A stretch of 64,000 nt of DNA from Methylocystis sp. MJC1 (lineage in GTDB: Bacteria > Pseudomonadota > Alphaproteobacteria > Rhizobiales > Beijerinckiaceae). Both the position numbers and the translations under genes were made by a program. This document shows positions 4,884-22,093 of the stretch, in pieces (the stretch's first letter is position 1; each line of letters opens with the position of its first letter). The DNA lies in NCBI RefSeq assembly GCF_026427715.1, contig NZ_CP107558.1, positions 3,131,001 through 3,195,000 of the forward strand, given 5' to 3'. The notes under the pieces were generated by a model, which saw only the letters and a program-made list of their open reading frames with translations, did not search any database and had not been told where the DNA came from.

Positions 4884-4959
4884 GAGCGCGTAGCTCAGTC
4901 GGTAGAGCATCTGACTTTTAATCAGGGGGTCCTGGGTTCGAGTCCCAGCGCGCTCACCA
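4884..4959 (+). tRNA. tRNA-Lys (anticodon UUU)
   Basis: Full cloverleaf: the acceptor GAGCGCG pairs with CGCGCTC. The D arm reads GCTCAGTCGGTAGAGC, the anticodon arm is CTGA-CTTTTAA-TCAG with TTT at positions 34-36, and the T arm is CTGGG-TTCGAGT-CCCAG. Discriminator A and an encoded CCA end the gene. A mobile island lies immediately downstream, so its 3' end is a likely attachment site. Confidence 0.96.
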
Positions 4960-6745: not shown

Positions 6746-9415
6746 ATGGCGAACGAACCAAGACCGGCAGGCGGTCGTGCGACCGCATCGGGCATGAGCT
6801 TCCAGGCCGGAGTCGGCGCGTGGTTCGCCGCGCACCTCGCTACGGCGACTCCGCTCGGCATGCGGTTCGGGCTGTCCGCCACCGCGCTGCCCGAAAGGCT
6901 CCAGTTTGAGACCGCACAGTTCCTCGACGACATCAAGATGGACCTGTCCGACGGAAGCTTGATCCTCGTCCAATGCAAGACGCGCCCGGCGATGTCCGCC
7001 GCCAAGGACGGTCCACTCGCCAATACTGTGACCCAGCTGGCATCGTTCCTCCTCACCAAGCGGAAGGAGGGTACCGAGCCTGACCCTATCAAGGTTGCGG
7101 CCGTGCTCGCAGTCACGTCTGACGCGTCAGGCTCGCTCGACGACCTTGAGGAGGCCTGCCGCCACTTCGACCTCGGGGCGAGGTGGGCTGACGCGGTGGG
7201 GCGCGTCGGCGCTAGGCAAGGGTCGGCGCTTCGGGTGTTCGCCCAGTGCGCTTGCGCGGCCTGGGAGTTATTGGAGGGGAGCCTGCCGACCGAGACCGAC
7301 CTTGCGGCGCTCGCGCGCCTACTCCACATCGTGCGTTTCGACGTCAACGACGGCGGAGCCGACCAGCGCGAGGCCGCCAGCTTGATCGGGACCAAGCTGC
7401 TCGGGGACGAGGGTGCCGGCAGCGCTGCACTCGCCTCGCTAGGGCTGGTTGTCGACCGGATGACGCGCACGGGGGCGCCTGCCGATCGCAGGGGCCTCAT
7501 GCAGAGGCTTCGCACTGCCGGGATCGCCGACACCCGCAGCCCGGGTTACGACCAGGATATCCAGCTCCTCGTCTCGAGAACCTCGACCGAGCTGCACCGG
7601 CTCGCACGCCACGCGCGGCTTTCGACCTCCCGAGGCGCACCGATCCCACGCGAGTGCCTTTCCGAGTTGGCCGACGCGATCGATGGTGGCAGCCTCCTCG
7701 TTATTGGCGAGCCAGGCGCAGGCAAGACCGGCATCCTCGTAACCCACGCCGAGCGCCTCGCCCAGGGAAGCGCGCCGCTGGTCCTACTGTCGGTCGACAG
7801 CCTCAGCGGCGTCATGGGCCGCAACATGCTGAGGACCGAGCTCCAGCTCAAGCATGACCTCATCGAGGTGCTGGCGAACTGGCCGGGACGCGAGCCCGGC
7901 GTCCTCATCATCGACGTCCTGGATGCCTCGCGTGGCGGGCCGTCCGAGCTGGTGTTCGCGAACCTGATTCAGGAGGGGCTCCAGCGCCTCGGCGAGCGGT
8001 GGTCAATCGTCGCGTCGATCCGCACGTTCGACCTCAAGAACGGCACGCGTTTTCGCGCCATCATGGAGGGGGAGCCGCCGTCCGCGACCTTCCGGGACGC
8101 CGGCCTCGGCAACGTCCGGCACTTCCTCGTCCCGCGCCTCAGCGCCGACGAAATCGGCTCGCTCGCGCAGTCGGATCCCGAACTCTCGCGACTGGTCGCG
8201 GCGGCCCCGCCCCCGCTGCGGGAGCTTCTGCGTAATGTCTTCAACCTATCGCTCGCGGCGGAGCTCGTCAGCGCGGGCGCAACTGCAGAGAGCATCGCGA
8301 ACATCACGACGCAGTCCGACCTCATCTGGAATTACGAGGACGCTCGGCTCAACACCGACCGCCTCCGCGTCGCCGTCGGCGACACGCTCACTGTGATGGT
8401 CAACAAGCGGCGGATCACGGTGCTTCGTTCGCTAATCCGCAACGAGGCCGTCGGGGACTTGGTGCAGAGCGGAGTGCTCGCGCTGGCCGGCGAGCGCATC
8501 GCCTTCTCCCACCACGTCCTGTTCGACCATGCCGCCAGCCGGTACTATCTTGAGTGGGACGACACGGACGCGCTGACAGCTCAGGTCTCCCGCGATCCCG
8601 CAATCGGTCTGCTGCTCGGTCCCGCACTCCGCTTCGCTGTCGAAAAGGCATGGCGCGAGGGCGGCCTCGGCCATGCCGACACTTGGCGGCTGATCGCGGG
8701 GTTGTGCGCGACCGAGGACATCGATCCCATCATCACGAGCGTTGCGTTACGCACCGCGGCCGAGGGCGTCGCCGGCCCCGAGGACGTCGCCGGCCTCCTC
8801 GACCTCCTGTGTAACCAGAGAAGCTCGCGCGAGCTCGCCACAGCGCTTGAACGGCTCGCGCGCTTCGTCGGTATGCGTGCGGGTGAGCCGGGTGGGCTGC
8901 CGGCCGGTGCGAAGGCAGCCTGGGCGGCCGTCGCGCGCGAAGGCGTTCGCAACCTCGTGGCCGGATGTTCCGACGGCGTGCGCTTCCTGCTGATGACGCT
9001 CGCCGACAAGGGTGACTTCGAAGACGACGAATTCGCGGGCACGTACGGCGAGGCGGCGCGCGGCCTCCTCTCCTTCGCGTGGTCTAAAACCCCCGACATG
9101 CAGGGGCTTGCCAACCAGGCGATCCGCTTCGTGACAGCGAGTTACGCGTCGGACGTACCTAAGTCCCGCGCTCTGCTAACGCAGATCCTCCAGGATCCGC
9201 GCTTCGAGCTCTACGCACACGAGGAGATGCCGTGGCTTGCGGAGGGGGCGGCGACGATCGCCCCAGTCGACCCGGAGTTCGCTTTCGAGATCTACCGCAC
9301 GATGTTCGGCCGCCAGATCTCACAGGACGGCCACTTCGACGAGAGAGCGAGGATACGGCTGGGCCGACCGCCCAGGCGGGTGAAGCCGACGGCGGGGAGT
9401 GGCGCGTATCGCTAG
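6746..9415 (+). CDS. Cap4-like nuclease plus STAND-type NTPase, N-terminal part of a frameshifted gene
   Basis: 889 residues. Residues ~15-80 resemble the DUF4297/Cap4 PD-(D/E)xK nuclease: a GMSFQAG entry, then FLDDIKMDLSDG, with LVQCKTR giving the D...QxK core at about 62 and 76-78. Residues 321-328 are a Walker A loop (GEPGAGKT), and ~386-394 look like Walker B (VLIIDVLDA). The remainder to ~885 is helical and repeat-like. This order (nuclease, P-loop NTPase, helical repeats) is that of STAND-type anti-phage sensors such as Avs proteins. The last ~17 residues after HFDE are probably out of frame: the natural continuation is the next entry, reached if one GA unit in GAGAGAG (9341-9347) is removed. 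Defence is inferred from architecture and island context. Confidence 0.7.
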   Translation: MANEPRPAGGRATASGMSFQAGVGAWFAAHLATATPLGMRFGLSATALPERLQFETAQFLDDIKMDLSDGSLILVQCKTRPAMSAAKDGPLANTVTQLASFLLTKRKEGTEPDPIKVAAVLAVTSDASGSLDDLEEACRHFDLGARWADAVGRVGARQGSALRVFAQCACAAWELLEGSLPTETDLAALARLLHIVRFDVNDGGADQREAASLIGTKLLGDEGAGSAALASLGLVVDRMTRTGAPADRRGLMQRLRTAGIADTRSPGYDQDIQLLVSRTSTELHRLARHARLSTSRGAPIPRECLSELADAIDGGSLLVIGEPGAGKTGILVTHAERLAQGSAPLVLLSVDSLSGVMGRNMLRTELQLKHDLIEVLANWPGREPGVLIIDVLDASRGGPSELVFANLIQEGLQRLGERWSIVASIRTFDLKNGTRFRAIMEGEPPSATFRDAGLGNVRHFLVPRLSADEIGSLAQSDPELSRLVAAAPPPLRELLRNVFNLSLAAELVSAGATAESIANITTQSDLIWNYEDARLNTDRLRVAVGDTLTVMVNKRRITVLRSLIRNEAVGDLVQSGVLALAGERIAFSHHVLFDHAASRYYLEWDDTDALTAQVSRDPAIGLLLGPALRFAVEKAWREGGLGHADTWRLIAGLCATEDIDPIITSVALRTAAEGVAGPEDVAGLLDLLCNQRSSRELATALERLARFVGMRAGEPGGLPAGAKAAWAAVAREGVRNLVAGCSDGVRFLLMTLADKGDFEDDEFAGTYGEAARGLLSFAWSKTPDMQGLANQAIRFVTASYASDVPKSRALLTQILQDPRFELYAHEEMPWLAEGAATIAPVDPEFAFEIYRTMFGRQISQDGHFDERARIRLGRPPRRVKPTAGSGAYR

Positions 9416-11127
9416 CCGCCCGCATTCTATCCACCGTACCCGACGAGGCACTCGCCACGGCATCAGGGCGTGAGGTGAAGGCCCGCCTAGGCTCGGAGGG
9501 CAGGCTCGTCGGAAACCGACCCTTCGTGTCGTTCGAGTTCGGCACTGGCGAGAACTACGACATTGTCGACAGCCTGCTGCGGCACGAGGGCGCGGATCTC
9601 TCGAAAGGCCGCGACAAGGCGGTCCGAGAATCGACGCGCAAGCTTGAGGCTATGCTGCACGAGTTGACAGGCGAGTGCGACGCCGCGCAGGTCGGCCAGC
9701 TCTGGACGGCGGCAAGGAACGTGCTCGCCATCTTGGACGACGCCTCGGACGGAACGGCTCACGCACAGGTGCAGCAGGCCAGCTGGGGCGCGGTCGGCAA
9801 CGCCGTCGAGAAGATCGCCGAGGCCAGGGCTTATGCGCCGGATGTCGCCGACCATCCCCGGCTCGACGAAATCACCGCGTTGGTCGACCGGCTCTCGGCG
9901 AACCCCTACCCCGAGCCGAGTTCCGGCCTGGACGACGACGACTTACTGGGATGGGGCAACTGGGACGTGCGCGTCTATGCCGCGTCGGCGCTGATAGACC
10001 TGTGCCGCCGGTTCGGCGACCGCGACCCGTCACTGATCGACCGCCTTGAGGGGCTGGCGTTCGACCCGGTACCTACGGTCCGCCTCCAGATTGCCCAGTC
10101 GCTCAACGCGCTGTGGGACGTGGCCCGCCCGAAGATGTGGGAGCTTGCGACGAGGATCGGCCGCGAGGAGCCCCACCTTGGGGTGCTCGGTTTCTTTGTT
10201 GGCGGTCCCCTCAGGCGGATATCCGAGCCCGAGCCCGAACGCGCCGAGGCGATCGCCGACGAGATCCTGAAGCGCCTACCGCGCAAGAACGGCGAGAAGA
10301 CCGAGCGCGCCCGCGAGCCCGCCGCCGAGCCCATCGCGGGGCTCGCGGCCCGCCTTTGGATCGGCCGGGGCCGATCCGCCGCGCGCGGCTGGATCGATGA
10401 ATGGATGTTCGACCTCGTTAGCGGCGAACCCTATCTCTGGCCACTCATCTCGACGATCCGGACCGGGCTGTTCGAGACGTACGTTCGTCCCGACGACGAG
10501 ACCTCCGTCGGCATCCAGCTGCGCTCCAAGGAGCTCGCCGACCAGTTAGCCCAGATCGCGAGCGAGCTGATGCGGGAGAGCCTGAACCAGGTCCAGAGCG
10601 AGGATGCGACACTTGAGGACCGCGCCAGGGCCGAGACCCGTTACCAAGTCGCCGCGACGCTGCTCGACCACGTCTCGAACCAGCTCTACTTCGGATCCGG
10701 CGTGTTCCGCCATGGCGGGAGCAACCCCGGGGAGGACATCCCGGGTCTCATTGACGGCAAGGCCAAGAAGGCCTTCCTCGACGCCTACTCGGACACGCTC
10801 GACGTGATTGGCCACTCAGGCACCGCGCACACCTTGCACCATCTCGTCGAACTTTACGAATACCTAGCCGACGCCGCGCCCGAGATGGTGTTCGACCGGG
10901 TAGCTGAGCTTCTCGTCGGCCCCGCCCAGCGCGAGTGGTACCAATTTGAGAGCCTTGGGTCGGACGCGCTTGTCCGCTTGGTCCGCCGCTACCTCGCCGA
11001 CCACCGCGAGGTGTTTGAGAACACGGCACGGCGCGGCCGCTTGGTGGCCGTTCTCGAACTCTTCTCGGGCGCGGGCTGGCCCGAGGCGCTAAAGCTCCTC
11101 TACGAGTTGCCGGACCTGCTGCGTTGA
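9343..11127 (+). CDS. C-terminal helical-repeat part of the frameshifted STAND NTPase
   Basis: Continuation, in the -1 frame, of the gene starting at 6746. About 594 residues remain open to the TGA at 11125-11127, with no well-placed ATG near its beginning; ATG 9232 lies in the shadow of the upstream frame. The content is helical and repeat-like (YAASALIDLCRRFGDRDPSLIDRL, PTVRLQIAQSLNALWD: HEAT/ARM style) and fits a target-recognition C-terminus. Joined, the protein would be about 1460 residues, in the range of Avs-type sensors. Either the gene is disrupted, the frame is recovered by slippage at the GA repeat, or the sequence has an error. Its stop overlaps the next start. Confidence 0.6.
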   Translation, partial: ESEDTAGPTAQAGEADGGEWRVSLAARILSTVPDEALATASGREVKARLGSEGRLVGNRPFVSFEFGTGENYDIVDSLLRHEGADLSKGRDKAVRESTRKLEAMLHELTGECDAAQVGQLWTAARNVLAILDDASDGTAHAQVQQASWGAVGNAVEKIAEARAYAPDVADHPRLDEITALVDRLSANPYPEPSSGLDDDDLLGWGNWDVRVYAASALIDLCRRFGDRDPSLIDRLEGLAFDPVPTVRLQIAQSLNALWDVARPKMWELATRIGREEPHLGVLGFFVGGPLRRISEPEPERAEAIADEILKRLPRKNGEKTERAREPAAEPIAGLAARLWIGRGRSAARGWIDEWMFDLVSGEPYLWPLISTIRTGLFETYVRPDDETSVGIQLRSKELADQLAQIASELMRESLNQVQSEDATLEDRARAETRYQVAATLLDHVSNQLYFGSGVFRHGGSNPGEDIPGLIDGKAKKAFLDAYSDTLDVIGHSGTAHTLHHLVELYEYLADAAPEMVFDRVAELLVGPAQREWYQFESLGSDALVRLVRRYLADHREVFENTARRGRLVAVLELFSGAGWPEALKLLYELPDLLR

Positions 11128-12518
11128 GCCACCGCGCCGACCCGATGGTGTTCGACGCGCGGCTGCGCAGGATCATCGACGACTTCCGCAGGAACGAGAA
11201 GCGCATCCGCGACGAATACGCGCGCGGACCCGAGACCTCGCACGTTCCGAAGGAGATGACCGAGCGGGCGACGAGGCGCTTCCTCGTCGACGAGTTCCTG
11301 CGCGCCCTCGACTGGGACCCAGGCGACCCGGCGAAGACCGCTGAGGAGGCGCGCACTTGGCATCCCTCCGGCGATTGGCTGTTCCTAGACTATCTCGGTA
11401 TCGATCCGCAGAGCCAAACGCCCACCGTAATCTTTGAGGCCAAGAAGTTCGACGTCGAGCCGCCCCACGCGGCGCGCGCCGAGAGACCGACGTCGCGGGA
11501 GATGCCCGCACTGATTGCGGACGCGATAGACGCCCTGCGGCTTAGCGACGCAACTTCCACACTGCTCGTAGAGTGGGCGGACTATCTCGGCGCGATGCAC
11601 CGCTATCTACAGTCGATGGATAGCAAGGGACGAGCAAGCCTCCAGCGCGCGGTTATCTCGTCCGGTGGCTGGATGATAGTCTTCGAGAACCCATGCGCGA
11701 CCTTTCTCGGGGACAATCCGTCCGAGCCCGAGCTGATCCACTGCTTCGTCGGCTTCGACGAGATCCAAGACGGCAGCTACGACATCTTCGAGTTGCTCCA
11801 CCGCGAGCGACTCGTAGACACACTTCCACCGGCGCTCGATGTCACCGAGGCGCTTGAGCACATCCGGGTTGATCGGATCGAACGCTGGTTTCGGGGGGTG
11901 GTCGTCGCGACCTCGGGATCCTCCGGCACGCGTCGGGCGAGCTATCCAACGCGGGCCATCTACCCCGCGCTGATCGTCCGCAGCGGCATCCGGTCGTTCG
12001 CCATCGCGGACCTCAATGGGAAGAGACCGGTCGAGGAGCCTCGCTCGGAGGACAGCATCGCCGGTTTCCTGGAGGCGCTCGACCGGGCCGGGACCCGGCT
12101 TGAGAAGCAGGTCGCCGCCCTGTTCGGCATTGCAATCGAACCGTCGCTGCTCGAAGATTTCCCCGGCTTCACTCAAGCGCGCCGGACCACCGATCCGCTA
12201 CGCGGACCGTTCGAGCCGACTCCTGGCTCGACCACAGATATGGCACCGGCCAAGCCCGCGTTGAAGGCGTTTACGAACGTGTCGGACGTGACGATGCGAG
12301 AATTCGTGGTCGTCGTCGGCACCGACCGCTTTTACAAGACGGATCGGCAGCATGGGCCCGAGTGCCCTTACCACTACTGGAAGGCGGCGCGCGCGGACGC
12401 ATTCGCCGAGGTTTCCCCTCACGAAGGCTTCACAACCGATTCGTTCACCGAGGACGGCCAAGACCGTCACTGCGCGCACGCGGGAATGCTGGGTATTCGC
12501 GCCGACTTTGGTGGTTGA
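11124..12518 (+). CDS. HsdR_N-like PD-(D/E)xK nuclease protein coupled to the STAND gene
   Basis: About 464 residues. A TTG at 11124 overlaps the preceding TGA (TTGA), and an ATG lies at 11145; either start keeps tight coupling. Residues ~50-110 resemble the type I restriction R-subunit N-terminal nuclease: VDEFLRALDWD, then WLFLDYLG with Asp near 89, and VIFEAKKFD giving E-x-K at 105-107. The middle is mixed alpha/beta. The last ~90 residues contain Cys/His pairs (HGPECPYHYW, DRHCAHAG) that might bind metal. The IS5-type transposase begins 18 bp after the stop, so the native C-terminus may be altered. I infer a second effector or partner of the upstream sensor; I do not recognise a named system. 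Confidence 0.6.
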   Translation: MSHRADPMVFDARLRRIIDDFRRNEKRIRDEYARGPETSHVPKEMTERATRRFLVDEFLRALDWDPGDPAKTAEEARTWHPSGDWLFLDYLGIDPQSQTPTVIFEAKKFDVEPPHAARAERPTSREMPALIADAIDALRLSDATSTLLVEWADYLGAMHRYLQSMDSKGRASLQRAVISSGGWMIVFENPCATFLGDNPSEPELIHCFVGFDEIQDGSYDIFELLHRERLVDTLPPALDVTEALEHIRVDRIERWFRGVVVATSGSSGTRRASYPTRAIYPALIVRSGIRSFAIADLNGKRPVEEPRSEDSIAGFLEALDRAGTRLEKQVAALFGIAIEPSLLEDFPGFTQARRTTDPLRGPFEPTPGSTTDMAPAKPALKAFTNVSDVTMREFVVVVGTDRFYKTDRQHGPECPYHYWKAARADAFAEVSPHEGFTTDSFTEDGQDRHCAHAGMLGIRADFGG

Positions 12519-12536
12519 TTGTCTTAAAGGAATCGG

Positions 12537-13349
12537 ATGTCTCCGGTTCGCAAACCGTATCCGTCTGATGTCAGCGACGAAGAATGGTCCCTGGTTGCGC
12601 CGTATCTGACGCTGATGGACGAGGGCGCTCCGCAACGTCAGCATTTGCTTCGTGAGCTTTTCAACGGCCTGCGCTACGTTCTGCGTTACGGCATAGCATG
12701 GCGCGCCATGCCCAACGATCTGCCGCCCTGGTCCGCAGTGTATCAGCAATCGCAGCGCTGGCTGGCGGCGGGCGTGTTCGAAGAGCTTGCGCAGGACCTG
12801 CGCGCCTTGTTGCGCGTCGCCTCCGGTCGCGCCGAGGAGCCAACCGCGGCGATCATCGACAGCCGCACGCTGCGCTCTACGCCGGAAAGCGGTCCACGGG
12901 CCGGCTATGACGGCGCCAAGCGCAAGCGCGGCTCCAAGCTGCTCATGGCGGTCGACACGCTGGGGCACTTGCTGGCGCTGCACGTTACGCCGGCGAATGT
13001 CGACGACCGCGCCGAGATCGGCAAGCTCGCCGCCGCTGTGCAGGACGCCACCGGCGAGAGCGTCGAGCTTATTTATGTCGATCAAGGTTATACCGGCGAG
13101 AAAGCCGCCGAGGCGGCCAAAGCGCAGGGCGTCGAACTCTGCGTGGTCAAACTCTCCGAAGCGAAAAAAGGCTTCGTGCTGTTGCCCAAACGCTGGGTTG
13201 TCGAACGATCCTTCGCTTGGGCGACCCGATGCAAGCGGCTGGTCAAAGACTACGAACGCTACGCCGACACACTCGCTGGCCTCCACGTCGTCGCTTTCGC
13301 CTGCCTCATGCTCAAACGCGCAGCCGACTTCATAATACAGAGTACATAA
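12537..13349 (+). mobile_element. IS5 family transposase (single ORF)
   Basis: 270-residue DDE transposase, apparently full length: DEEWSLVAPYL at the N-terminus, IIDSRTLRSTPESG with the first catalytic Asp, KLLMAVDTLGHLLAL, IYVDQGYTGE with the second Asp, and the terminal RWVVERSFAWATRCKRLVKDYER block with the catalytic Glu. It belongs to the IS5 group with one uninterrupted frame. I could not identify convincing terminal inverted repeats or a target duplication by eye; the left end must lie within or just after the nuclease gene and the right end near 13350-13380. It separates the candidate defence operon from decayed genes. Confidence 0.88.
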
Positions 13350-13355
13350 CACCCT

Positions 13356-13918
13356 CTAGGTCTCGATTATCTCGATATCTTCTTTTTGCAGCTTCATATT
13401 CTTAACTCTCTTAGCCGTAACAGCAATCTTTTTGTGTAACGTATACGTCCTGACGCCAGTTAATGAGACGTCAATGACTTCCAATTTTGCCAAGTTGACT
13501 AGATGATCCAGTCGTTCAATTCTCGTGGCGCGCAAATTCAGACTAGTCAATTTAACCAATCGCTCCAGAACGCGCGGTTGCGCGAATTCTGTAGCTGCAA
13601 ATTCAGCGAATGAAGCGAGAGAAGGTTTTCGAGGCACTAAAAACGGACGGTGAGGTTGCAGACAATCTTAAACGGCCGAGGCTCCGCAATGTCGGGAGCA
13701 TTAATATGCCGGACAATTTTTGTACCGTGGAAATTCAGATGCTCAATCATTGCATTCGCCTGAAGTGAGGTAATATGTGAGATGGGCGAACGATGGAGCA
13801 CCAACTCCATCAGCGAAGGTAGATCCTTCACGGATGGCAAATCAGTTATTTTGGTCCCACGCAAGACCAACTTATTCAGGACCTGTAACTCGTCAATACT
13901 TGAGCAGCCGGCGAGCAT
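13356..13918 (-). pseudogene. leucine-rich-repeat protein remnant
   Basis: Two consecutive minus-strand frames, 13637-13918 and 13356-13637, each encode LRR units (LNKLVLRGTKITDLPSVKDL, LVKLTSLNLRATRIERLDHL) with a roughly 22-23 residue period. The first frame stops where the second starts (TAG at 13637-13639 overlapping a GTG), which suggests one LRR gene broken by a frameshift. The 5' side ends abruptly against the IS21 remnant at 13919 and the 3' side against the IS5 element. The sequence is AT-rich compared with its surroundings. It is probably non-functional. Confidence 0.55.
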
Positions 13919-18416: not shown

Positions 18417-18929
18417 TCAGTCCGCGCTAGCTTTTGAAATCGCGCGGACGAAACGCAGATCGATTCCCAAATCGCCGGAAGCTAGTATTTTGATCGCTTG
18501 GGGTACAGCCTCTGTTGTGAAAATCGCGTTGACATAGTTTTCAGCGACAAGACGACAATCATAAAGATATGACCTGCTGAATTTGTCGCCCCTCATCTGT
18601 TTGGTTACCGCTTCCTCAACTCCACGACCCATGTTTATGTCATGAAGTATCTTTGCACCTAGCAGGATGCGCTCACGTGCATTTTCATCTTTTTTCGAGC
18701 GATAAGTTCTTCGCGCATTTTTGGCAGGCTTCAGAACGACGGAATTTCTTCCGTCTTTATCGTCGAGAAGACGGGCGAGTTTTCTTGCGATGGGTGCCGG
18801 GATGCTTCTCTTAGAGCGCAACATCTGCACCAAAGGGGCCACGTCAGAGCGTTCTTGAAGAGCGGCAAAAGCTGCGTTCCACCCGAAGGTTTCCTCCTCA
18901 GCCACACCCATGAAATGAGGGATGCTCAT
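18417..18929 (-). CDS. hypothetical island protein coupled to the integrase
   Basis: 170 residues from the ATG at 18929, which shares an ATGA with the integrase stop, and a GAGGAAAT site precedes it. The sequence is basic and helical (VLKPAKNARRTYRSKKDENARERILL), with PAPIARKLARLLDD in the first half. It may bind nucleic acid. No family recognised. Tight coupling to the integrase suggests a role in recombination or maintenance of the island. Confidence 0.6.
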   Translation of the reverse strand: MSIPHFMGVAEEETFGWNAAFAALQERSDVAPLVQMLRSKRSIPAPIARKLARLLDDKDGRNSVVLKPAKNARRTYRSKKDENARERILLGAKILHDINMGRGVEEAVTKQMRGDKFSRSYLYDCRLVAENYVNAIFTTEAVPQAIKILASGDLGIDLRFVRAISKASAD

Positions 18930-19732
18930 CTTGATTTCCTCAGTGTGGGAGTAGCCTGCGCGCAAGTACCATCAAGCGCCGCGGCGATGGTCGCTCCAAT
19001 CGTATCCGCGGCCCGCCGCAAGGGATCCGCGTCCAAGTGCGCGTAGCGCGCCGTCGTCGCGGGCTGCGAATGGCCGAGAAGCTTTCCGATGATCGGGAGG
19101 CCCAGCGACGCGCCTGCGCCAAACGACGCAAAGCTATGGCGTAGGTCATGCAGCCGCACGCCTTCAAGACCGGCCGCGCGCGTCACAGCCTGCCACGGCT
19201 TCTTAAGGTCGGCGCGCGGCGCCCCTTCCTTTGCGCCAGCGATAATATGCGGGTTGCCTTCGACGCGCGCCAAGCCCGAAAGCACAGCTTGAGCAGCTGC
19301 CGAGATATAGATCGGCTTGCGGCCCGTCTTGGAGTCATCGAGAAAGATTACGCCGCGCTCCAAGTCGACCTGCGACCATTGTGCATCCAAGATCTCGCGA
19401 AGCCGCGCACCGGTAAGGAGCAAAAGCCGAATCGCCGCGACCGCGAAAGGGTCAAGCTTCACACGCCGGTTTTCGGGCTTTGCGAGATGTTTCGCCTTGG
19501 GGCCTGCCTCGTCCACCTCCCACGGGAGGCCGTCCATCTCGGCGAGGCGCAGGGCATCACCCAGGCGGGAGAGTTCGTCGGACGATAAGAACCGCTCCCT
19601 GCCCTGCTCTCGGTAGCGCTCGATGCGCCGGGCAGGGTTATGCCCTTGGACGAAGCCGCGACTTTCGGCCCAAGCGAACATTTTGGCCCATGTCGCTAGG
19701 GCTCGATTCGCCGCATAGGGCGTTTCCCCCAT
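18926..19732 (-). CDS. tyrosine recombinase/integrase, N-terminally truncated
   Basis: 268 residues from the ATG at 19732. The catalytic domain is complete: LLLTGARLREILDAQW with the first Arg, a Lys-bearing beta-hairpin (DDSKTGRKP), HDLRHSFASFG with H-x-x-R, LLGHSQPATTARYAHL with the late His and nucleophile Tyr. The frame runs upstream through recognisable core-binding sequence (LTRAQLATLHAK) to a TAG at 19778-19780 and the usual arm-binding N-terminal domain of phage-type integrases is missing. So either the gene was cut at the island edge or a stop mutation occurred. Excision activity is doubtful. Confidence 0.82.
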   Translation of the reverse strand: MGETPYAANRALATWAKMFAWAESRGFVQGHNPARRIERYREQGRERFLSSDELSRLGDALRLAEMDGLPWEVDEAGPKAKHLAKPENRRVKLDPFAVAAIRLLLLTGARLREILDAQWSQVDLERGVIFLDDSKTGRKPIYISAAAQAVLSGLARVEGNPHIIAGAKEGAPRADLKKPWQAVTRAAGLEGVRLHDLRHSFASFGAGASLGLPIIGKLLGHSQPATTARYAHLDADPLRRAADTIGATIAAALDGTCAQATPTLRKSR

Positions 19733-20104: not shown

Positions 20105-21049
20105 ATGAAGCCAATCAAGGAAACACCGCGTTCCGACGCCGACGACGCCGGGGACGCCGCCATCGACTGGTTCGTGAGATTGAGGGGCGGGCTGTCCTCC
20201 GCCGAGGAAAAGGCGGCTTTCGAGCAGTGGCTCGCCGAAGATGCCGAAAACGCCGCGGCGTTCGAGGAGGTCCTGCGCATGTTTGGCCATCTCGCTGGGA
20301 TGAGCCCGTCCCTTCGGGTCCGACGCGCGCGCCGTGGCCGCAGGCGGCGCATCACGGCCACGGTCGCCACTCTGGCGGCCGCTCTCGCGATGCTGCTGTC
20401 GCTGGGCGACGTCGTAACACGAATTCGGGCCGATCATTACGCCGGCGTCGGGGAAAGGAAAGTCGTCACGCTGGATGACGGCTCCTGGGCGCAGCTCGAC
20501 TCGAGGTCGTCTATCTCTGTCCATTACAGCGCCGCCGAGAGACGCGTGACGCTGCTTTCCGGCGAAGCCTGGTTCGACGTTGCGCCCGATCCCGCGCGTC
20601 CCTTCGTCGTCGAGGCCGGCGAGGGCTCCGTGACCGCGCTCGGCACCGCCTTTGACGTCGCCTTGGACGGCTCCGGCGCGCGCGTGACAGTGAATGAACA
20701 TCGCGTGCTGGTCATGAGCCGGGGAGCCTCGGTCGTTGTAGCGGAAGGCCAACAGAGCGGTTATGAGCGCGGCGCCGCGGCGCGCGCGCCTGAAGCCGTG
20801 GACATCGACGCAGCCACCGCTTGGCGACACGGGAAGCTGATCGTGACGAAGCAGCCGCTTCGCGATGTTCTCGCAGCGGTCGGACGTTACCATCGCGGGA
20901 TTATCTATTGCGTCGATCCATCTGTTTGCGCGCGCCGTGTTTCCGGCGTTTTCGGCGTCGACGACCTGCGGCAACTCGTCGACGAAGTGGAGATCTCGCT
21001 CGGCCTGCACGCCATCCACATGACCGAATATGTGACCTTGTTGTATTGA
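20105..21049 (+). CDS. FecR family anti-sigma/iron-type signalling protein
   Basis: About 314 residues: an N-terminal DUF4880-like cytosolic part (AAIDWFVRLRGGLSSAEEKAAFEQWLAED), one transmembrane helix (TATVATLAAALAMLLSLGDVV), then the periplasmic FecR domain (VTLDDGSWAQLDSRSSISVHY, LLSGEAWFDVAPDPARPFVVEAG, TALGTAFDV) and a short STN-like end. FecR relays TonB-receptor signals to an ECF sigma factor. No sigma gene is adjacent, and the only TonB-receptor sequence nearby is a fragment, so it is an orphan. The start is uncertain; the frame is open from 20039. The gene is the first intact one after the island. Confidence 0.82.
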   Translation: MKPIKETPRSDADDAGDAAIDWFVRLRGGLSSAEEKAAFEQWLAEDAENAAAFEEVLRMFGHLAGMSPSLRVRRARRGRRRRITATVATLAAALAMLLSLGDVVTRIRADHYAGVGERKVVTLDDGSWAQLDSRSSISVHYSAAERRVTLLSGEAWFDVAPDPARPFVVEAGEGSVTALGTAFDVALDGSGARVTVNEHRVLVMSRGASVVVAEGQQSGYERGAAARAPEAVDIDAATAWRHGKLIVTKQPLRDVLAAVGRYHRGIIYCVDPSVCARRVSGVFGVDDLRQLVDEVEISLGLHAIHMTEYVTLLY

Positions 21050-21308
21050 CGCTCGAGGAACGAGAATTTTTTTAAAGGAGAGGTTCCGTTTTCTTGCCTT
21101 GCCACGTCTAGGGTTAGAGGCCTTGCCGTGGGACTGCATGTATGACGGAGCGAGAAGCAATAAGGAAAAGAACTCCGCAGCGGCTCCGAGATAAGTTCAG
21201 TATCGATCGAACGGCCCAGGGCTTGCCGCCCATCTGCGTAGAGATTTTAGAGCCGAAGCACGCGCACTTTGAATCAGGCGGCGCCCAGCAACCGCCTGCC
21301 CGGCGCAG

Positions 21309-21744
21309 ATGAACGTCTCTGCGCCTTTCATTCGACGCCCCGTCGCGACCACACTGATCGCCGCCGCCTGCTTCCTGCTCGGCTCTCTCGCCTATTTCTT
21401 TCTGCCGGTCGCCAGCGTTCCGTCCGTCGAGCTGCCGATAATCGGCGTTTCCGCCTCTCGTCCGGGGACCGATCCGGCTACCATGGCCGCCGCGGTGGCC
21501 GCGCCGTTGGAACGGCGGCTCGCAGGCATATCCAGCGTCGCCGAGCTCACTTCCGCCAATTCATACGGCTCGACTTCGATCACCCTTCAATTCCGGCTCG
21601 GACGAAACATCGACGCCGCGGTGCGCGACGTGCAGGCTGCGATCAATGCGGCGTTGACCGATCTTCCCTCCGACCTGCCGTCCCCTCCTTCCTTCCGCAA
21701 GGCCAGCCTGGCTGGGTCGCCGGTCTTTGCCCTCGCGATGACGT
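21309..21744 (+). pseudogene. RND efflux permease, 5' fragment
   Basis: About 145 residues match the start of HAE1-type RND pumps: FIRRPVATTLIAAACFLLG, the first periplasmic loop with SVELPIIGVSASRPGTDPATM, VAAPLERRLAGI, then RDVQAAINAALTDLPSDLP and PVFALAMTSD. The homology ends suddenly near 21744, where minus-strand TonB-receptor sequence begins, so some 900 residues are missing. It is the scar of a deletion or rearrangement. Confidence 0.8.
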
Positions 21745-21966
21745 CGGATAGAGGACGTGAATGCCGTTTACGTCCGCCAAACGATTCAGCGCGGCGTCCA
21801 TCGAGCCTTGCGGAATTTGGTAGATTTTGACAGCCTCAGCGATTTCCCTGTTGGTCATCGAGGCGTGCGCGACGGCGGGGCTGCCTGCTTCGATCGCTTT
21901 CACGCCCATGACGATCGCGATCGCCGTTGTTCTTTTCCACTCTCTCCTGGCCGCCGTCTTGTTCAT
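21742..21966 (-). pseudogene. TonB-dependent receptor, N-terminal fragment with STN domain
   Basis: About 75 residues: a basic, hydrophobic leader (ATAIAIVMGVKAIEAG) and the STN signature YQIPQGSMDAALNRLADVNGIHVLYP, found in TonB receptors that signal through FecR. It then runs into reverse-strand RND sequence. The plug and barrel are missing. It may be the remnant of the receptor once paired with the FecR gene at 20105. Confidence 0.7.
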
Positions 21967-22093
21967 CTTCCACCGCTCAGAAATCGGCGAGGACAAGTCC
22001 TCCCTTTGTTCTGAGACGCGCGAAGCTTCGATCTAGGAACGTGGTTCGAAATATTCTTTTGATTGTTTCGCGGCCGCCCGACGTTACGATCGC

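Follow-up and report, generated by a model that had tools for sequence, protein, structure and literature searches.

Among described anti-phage systems, Avs proteins recognize a conserved phage protein, and McrBC, HerA-DUF4297 and the type I and type IIG restriction enzymes recognize foreign DNA itself. The locus studied here lies in a 64,000-nucleotide stretch of the Methylocystis sp. MJC1 genome (contig NZ_CP107558.1, positions 3,131,001 to 3,195,000), which is referred to as a whole as the window. In an earlier note, made from the sequence alone, a two-gene anti-phage candidate that could not be named was proposed at window positions 6746-12518. The open reading frames (ORFs), their coordinates and the two-gene idea all hold, but the candidate does have a name, being listed as PDC-M54 in PADLOC-DB 2.0.0. 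As judged from its sequence, the window copy is a broken member of this known candidate kind, for which a defence function is presumed. It is likely that what remains at the locus is PDC-M54 in decay, and that this two-gene anti-phage candidate of STAND type, when intact, would work as proposed below. The interpretation given in the earlier note is supported, as are its domain calls, while the damage to the locus was understated.

Three plus-strand ORFs are of relevance, namely, P0001 (6746-9415, 889 aa), P0002 (9232-11127, 631 aa) and P0003 (11124-12518, 464 aa). In PADLOC-DB 2.0.0, P0001 (E 2.7e-226) and P0002 (E 1.1e-125) match as two parts of PDC-M54A (PDLC04702; here referred to as A), and the adjacent P0003 matches PDC-M54B (PDLC04704, E 1.1e-123; here referred to as B); these E-values put the assignment above chance. 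The models are matched over nearly their whole useful length and in the order A-B with an overlap, although A is without model positions 860-1060 and B without its tail, so that neither gene is complete. In Pfam, P0001 had no more than weak AAA matches (best E 0.03), P0002 matched a HEAT repeat (E 5e-5) and P0003 matched no family (E<=1); P0001 had no match in a phage collection. PDC stands for phage-defence candidate, a class derived by 'guilt-by-embedding' of which most members have not been validated, according to two sources (PMC12988326, PMC10855318).

The N-terminal piece of A (6746..9331, plus strand) comprises a nuclease head, a NACHT/STAND core and the start of a helical region, as indicated by PADLOC, fold and motifs. 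In the predicted structure, residues 4-263 match the fold of an LmuA/Cap4-like nuclease, and residues about 265-640 form a NACHT/STAND nucleoside triphosphatase (NTPase) core. The head has both the predicted fold and the D...QxK motif (D62, Q76, K78) of a Cap4/LmuA-type PD-(D/E)xK nuclease, and the protein carries a Walker A motif (GEPGAGKT, residues 321-328) and a Walker B-like block, VLIIDVLDASRGG. The C-terminal piece (9382..11127, plus strand, within ORF 9232-11127; PDLC04702 and Pfam HEAT) is helical, contains the HEAT match of P0002 and is regarded as the putative sensor. All of these elements, i.e., the Cap4-like motif, the Walker motifs, the helical repeat C-terminus and the Avs-type STAND domain order, had been read from the letters in the earlier note, and the Foldseek comparison suggested there returned Avs4 as the top match of the A model (E 1.1e-11).

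Compared with Avs/AVAST (Avs3, Avs4), A has a like domain order of nuclease, STAND NTPase and helical C-terminus, but differs by the HEAT-like nature of that C-terminus and by the second nuclease gene. A similar nuclease head is found in LmuA of Lamassu and Cap4 of CBASS, but in A it is placed on a NACHT-like core, and no SMC-type LmuB or SAVED domain was seen at PDC-M54. Among solved structures, the best profile match of A is PDB 9n00_A ('AAA family ATPase', 1523 residues; E 3.3e-6), which shares with A three collinear stretches, namely, a D..QxK-like piece that scores only 0.6 bits, the NTPase and a winged-helix-like piece; no publication was found for PDB 9n00/9n01.

In the earlier note, A had been taken as a protein of ~1460 residues joined over one frameshift. 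A simple frameshift is ruled out, as about 180-205 residues are gone at the joint. Residues 5-862 of P0001 correspond to positions 9-860 of the 1621-position PDC-M54A model and P0002 to positions 1060-1621, and tblastn with relatives places an identical gap at about 9331-9382, where the frame changes. The number of residues missing is 181 compared with P0046, 187 with P0048 and 205 with P0054; P0043 gives no clean number, its first match extending beyond the joint. The absence of model positions 860-1060 together with the 181-205 missing residues points to a deletion, not a single frameshift, and on this evidence A carries an out-of-frame internal deletion of about 180-205 residues with its joint at 9331..9382 (PADLOC model gap, tblastn). 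Residues 861-889 of P0001 have a predicted local distance difference test score below 50, and the tail of this ORF to 9415 is off-frame sequence. In related loci, unsplit A frames measure 1568-1737 aa from stop to stop. In a genome of the same genus (G430, locus L042), a single A match spans model positions 742-1621, which shows that the stretch missing in the window is kept there; the matched sequence contains an in-frame TAG, and a full-length B match follows A. A natural split form of the window A ORFs was also considered and ruled out, since the natural splits (loci L010 and L027) lie close to position 1240 of the model and their two parts overlap by ATGA.

B (11124..12504, plus strand) is truncated and comprises a predicted PD-(D/E)xK nuclease and the first part of a Cys-rich domain, as derived from PDLC04704, motifs and the fold of the intact homologue P0005. 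Its D...ExK motif (D89, E105, K107), rightly called HsdR_N-like in the earlier note, has catalytic residues that are invariant in 51/51 B proteins. The best fold matches of the P0005 model are type IIG enzymes (DrdV, BpuSI) and HsdR, so that both predicted fold and motif are those of an HsdR_N/type IIG-like PD-(D/E)xK nuclease. B is accordingly modelled as a domain of this type followed by a cysteine-rich tail, which sets it apart from these enzymes and is probably zinc-binding. Pfam HSDR_N did not match P0003 at E<=1 and matched 8 of the 51 B proteins weakly at E<=0.1 (best 0.0047), and no helicase or methylase match was obtained for B in Pfam, PADLOC and further profile scans.

An insertion sequence (IS) of the IS5 family at 12505..13360 (plus strand; transposase ORF 12537-13349, Pfam DDE_Tnp_1 and DUF4096), whose effect was missed in the earlier note, truncates B. 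Its ends are marked by eight other copies in the source genome (97-99% identity), of which seven start at the position corresponding to 12505 and one (L065) at 12515, with right ends at 13357-13360. Window B lacks 6 of the 9 Cys/His positions that are invariant in 51/51 other B proteins, and a search of the window for its last ~45 residues gave nothing (no additional match with E below 0.1). With A bearing a deletion and B cut by the IS, the window copy is probably non-functional. Plasmid records with a matching IS all belong to Methylocystis (5/5). To the right of the IS, the G+C content is 0.45 at 13361-13800 versus 0.65-0.68 in A and B, as if this sequence were of another origin.

The TTG start of B (11124) overlaps the stop of A (11125-11127) as TTGA, as had been claimed, and comparable overlaps recur in other genomes. 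Out of 35 A loci, 14 have B after A, so that the synteny search proposed in the earlier note does recover the pair elsewhere; these loci consist of 26 from one contig scan with A and nine of 14 plasmid loci. Among the 26, B lies directly after A in 11 and no B match was obtained in 14; in the remaining one (L022) the contig ends inside A, and it was counted as undecided and excluded from the tree. In 14/14 paired loci, the sequence at the stop of A is ATGA or GTGA, with the start in frame with B in all except L021 (13/14), and the annotation of three plasmids has B begin at precisely this overlap codon. Searches with B yielded, besides the source genome, three plasmids and two genomes (G298, G989), with A directly upstream in 5/5.

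PDC-M54 is rare and patchy. In one family (298 genomes), A and B both occur in the same two genomes; in the phylum (398 genomes), strong B matches are confined to the source genome (G000) and G298; and in the class (385 genomes), A at E<=1e-20 is found in the source genome and as a fragment in G519 only. Only strong A matches were counted, because the PDC-M54A model also matches 3/14 control genomes at E<=0.001, compared with 0/14 at 1e-20 and 1e-30. Weak A matches among 61 relatives (G445 at 5.1e-12; G452, G369 and G437 above 1e-5) were left uncounted. The B profile also gave weak matches (best E 1.5e-7 to 1.4e-4) in another 10 genomes, but these cover part of the N-terminal nuclease region only and were not counted as B.

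As A is also found without B, these comparisons suggest that the second nuclease, B, is optional. Of the 37 A proteins in a tree, 17 are paired with B and 20 solo, the 'paired' label of P0054 and P0048 relying on records equal in size to those of P0017 and P0024 (33285 and 53786 bases) and not on DNA. The paired/solo label changes six times, at least four of these changes being forced by starred branches, compared with 12.3 changes for shuffled labels (0/500 as low), and 12 solo A proteins form one clade (support 100/100). A fixed alternative partner that replaces B was sought by eye in ORF lists and rejected, there being no single common neighbour upstream or downstream of solo A; two loci (L003, L004) stop 731 and 508 bases past A. 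In L010 (9917-14874) and L027 (9791-14898), the HEAT-like C-terminus of A is encoded downstream by an ORF of its own, with an ATG that overlaps the stop of the first part (ATGA), and the putative sensor can therefore be a separate chain. Among the A relatives listed, 86/120 are 1225-1270 aa long, from which no proportion follows because the search admitted 0.55-1.75 times the query length and excluded longer full-length relatives. It may tentatively be suggested that PDC-M54 is a modular NLR-like receptor, with a nuclease-bearing STAND protein A and a plug-in nuclease B that was repeatedly gained or lost while the NTGA coupling was kept.

Several relatives of A are found in a defence context. 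In two sister loci, L016 (6737-22034, with B) and L026 (8254-19077, without B), A lies between HsdM and HsdS-HsdR genes of type I restriction, and on two Rhizobiaceae plasmids (L054, 7529-8986; L058, 7529-8983) a Shedu gene (SduA) lies directly upstream of solo A, at a distance of about 60 bases; Shedu is perhaps upstream of A in L004 too. In L052, A is flanked by DUF262, HEPN-like, Vsr, DNA cytosine methyltransferase and AbiJ-like genes. A and B of L051 are located amid metabolic and transport genes, with no defence setting. On a Streptomyces plasmid (L059, 12571-15528), a distant A without B is followed by a gene with a DUF4365 domain.

By analogy with Avs and NLR proteins, a mechanism can be proposed in which trigger, assembly, DNA targets, A-B interaction and defence itself are all inferred. 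Intact A would be inactive at rest. Its C-terminal HEAT-like region would recognize a cue of infection, which, by the example of Avs, is probably a phage protein, upon which the NACHT-like NTPase would drive assembly and the clustered LmuA/Cap4-like heads would cut DNA. Translation of B would be coupled to that of A through the NTGA overlap, and B would join A as a second, different nuclease, extending or redirecting the cutting. Several observations weigh against this proposal. A literature search under the name PDC-M54 yielded no publication and no activity data. The absence of B beside A in 14/26 loci means that B is not needed everywhere. The Avs matches of A in VIA-align have a root-mean-square deviation near 18 Å, the predicted A structure is that of the N-terminal piece, and Foldseek alone gave no B match below E 0.028. 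At E<=1, P0001 matched the PDC-M54A models and IetA (0.066) only and no Avs model in PADLOC, a library that presumably holds such models, AVAST calls being reported in a PADLOC-based survey (PMC10855318). The Avs3/Avs4 chains in PDB were not matched by the A profile either. Lastly, no other recognized defence gene was found in the window island (10 ORFs, Pfam only).

The main rival, which we regard as unlikely, is an ATP-dependent, restriction-like complex of the two proteins that recognizes foreign DNA instead of a phage protein, with A as the NTPase part and B as the DNA-recognizing nuclease. The type IIG and HsdR folds of B, the weak HSDR_N matches mentioned above and the two relatives inside type I restriction operons are in line with it, and the Cys-rich tail of B could bind DNA; compared with type I restriction-modification proper, neither HsdM nor HsdS occurs among the 10 window ORFs or the three operon ORFs (Pfam), and where they do lie next to A (L016, L026), they are separate genes. 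It is less probable still that B regulates A, keeping it in check or clearing its substrate, while A alone defends: the loci lacking B and the well-supported solo clade would fit such a role, but the invariant catalytic residues of B suggest that catalysis matters. That the window copy works in a reduced form, either as N-terminal A plus truncated B or with the A pieces as a split protein, is very improbable, given that, despite the intact nuclease and Walker motifs of P0001 and the naturally split A genes of L010 and L027, the natural split keeps the whole protein whereas about 200 positions (860-1060) are gone here, the second A piece has no coupled start, and B is without most of its invariant Cys/His positions.

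The surroundings of the locus agree with the integrase, satellite helicase and IS debris described in the earlier note: an integrase-domain ORF (18926..19732, minus strand; Pfam Phage_integrase E 4.8e-17), DUF5906, an IstB-like piece and an IS5-type transposase are located downstream (Pfam). A tRNA-Lys gene (4884..4959, plus strand; ARAGORN) is a possible insertion site of the putative island, whose boundary is unproven because no att repeat of the tRNA-Lys end was found. At window positions 20200-22000, which include a FecR-like ORF, the first 1551 bases are 100% identical to another part of the source genome (G000:C1:1555138-1556688), and the last 254 match another nearby piece.

The comparison gives PDC-M54 a fold-level identity, i.e., an LmuA/Cap4-like head, a NACHT-like core and a coupled type IIG/HsdR-like nuclease, and the window illustrates the decay of a large defence operon through both deletion and IS insertion. 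It is the intact pairs, and not the broken window copy, that are worth study. The features of interest in the family are the optional nuclease and the separable sensor. A literature search by listings found no description of a dual-nuclease STAND mechanism. The question is raised why A is paired with a second nuclease in some lineages and is alone in others. If the modular reading of PDC-M54 is true, one sensor would fire two different DNA-cutting enzymes, i.e., a dual-nuclease STAND mechanism.

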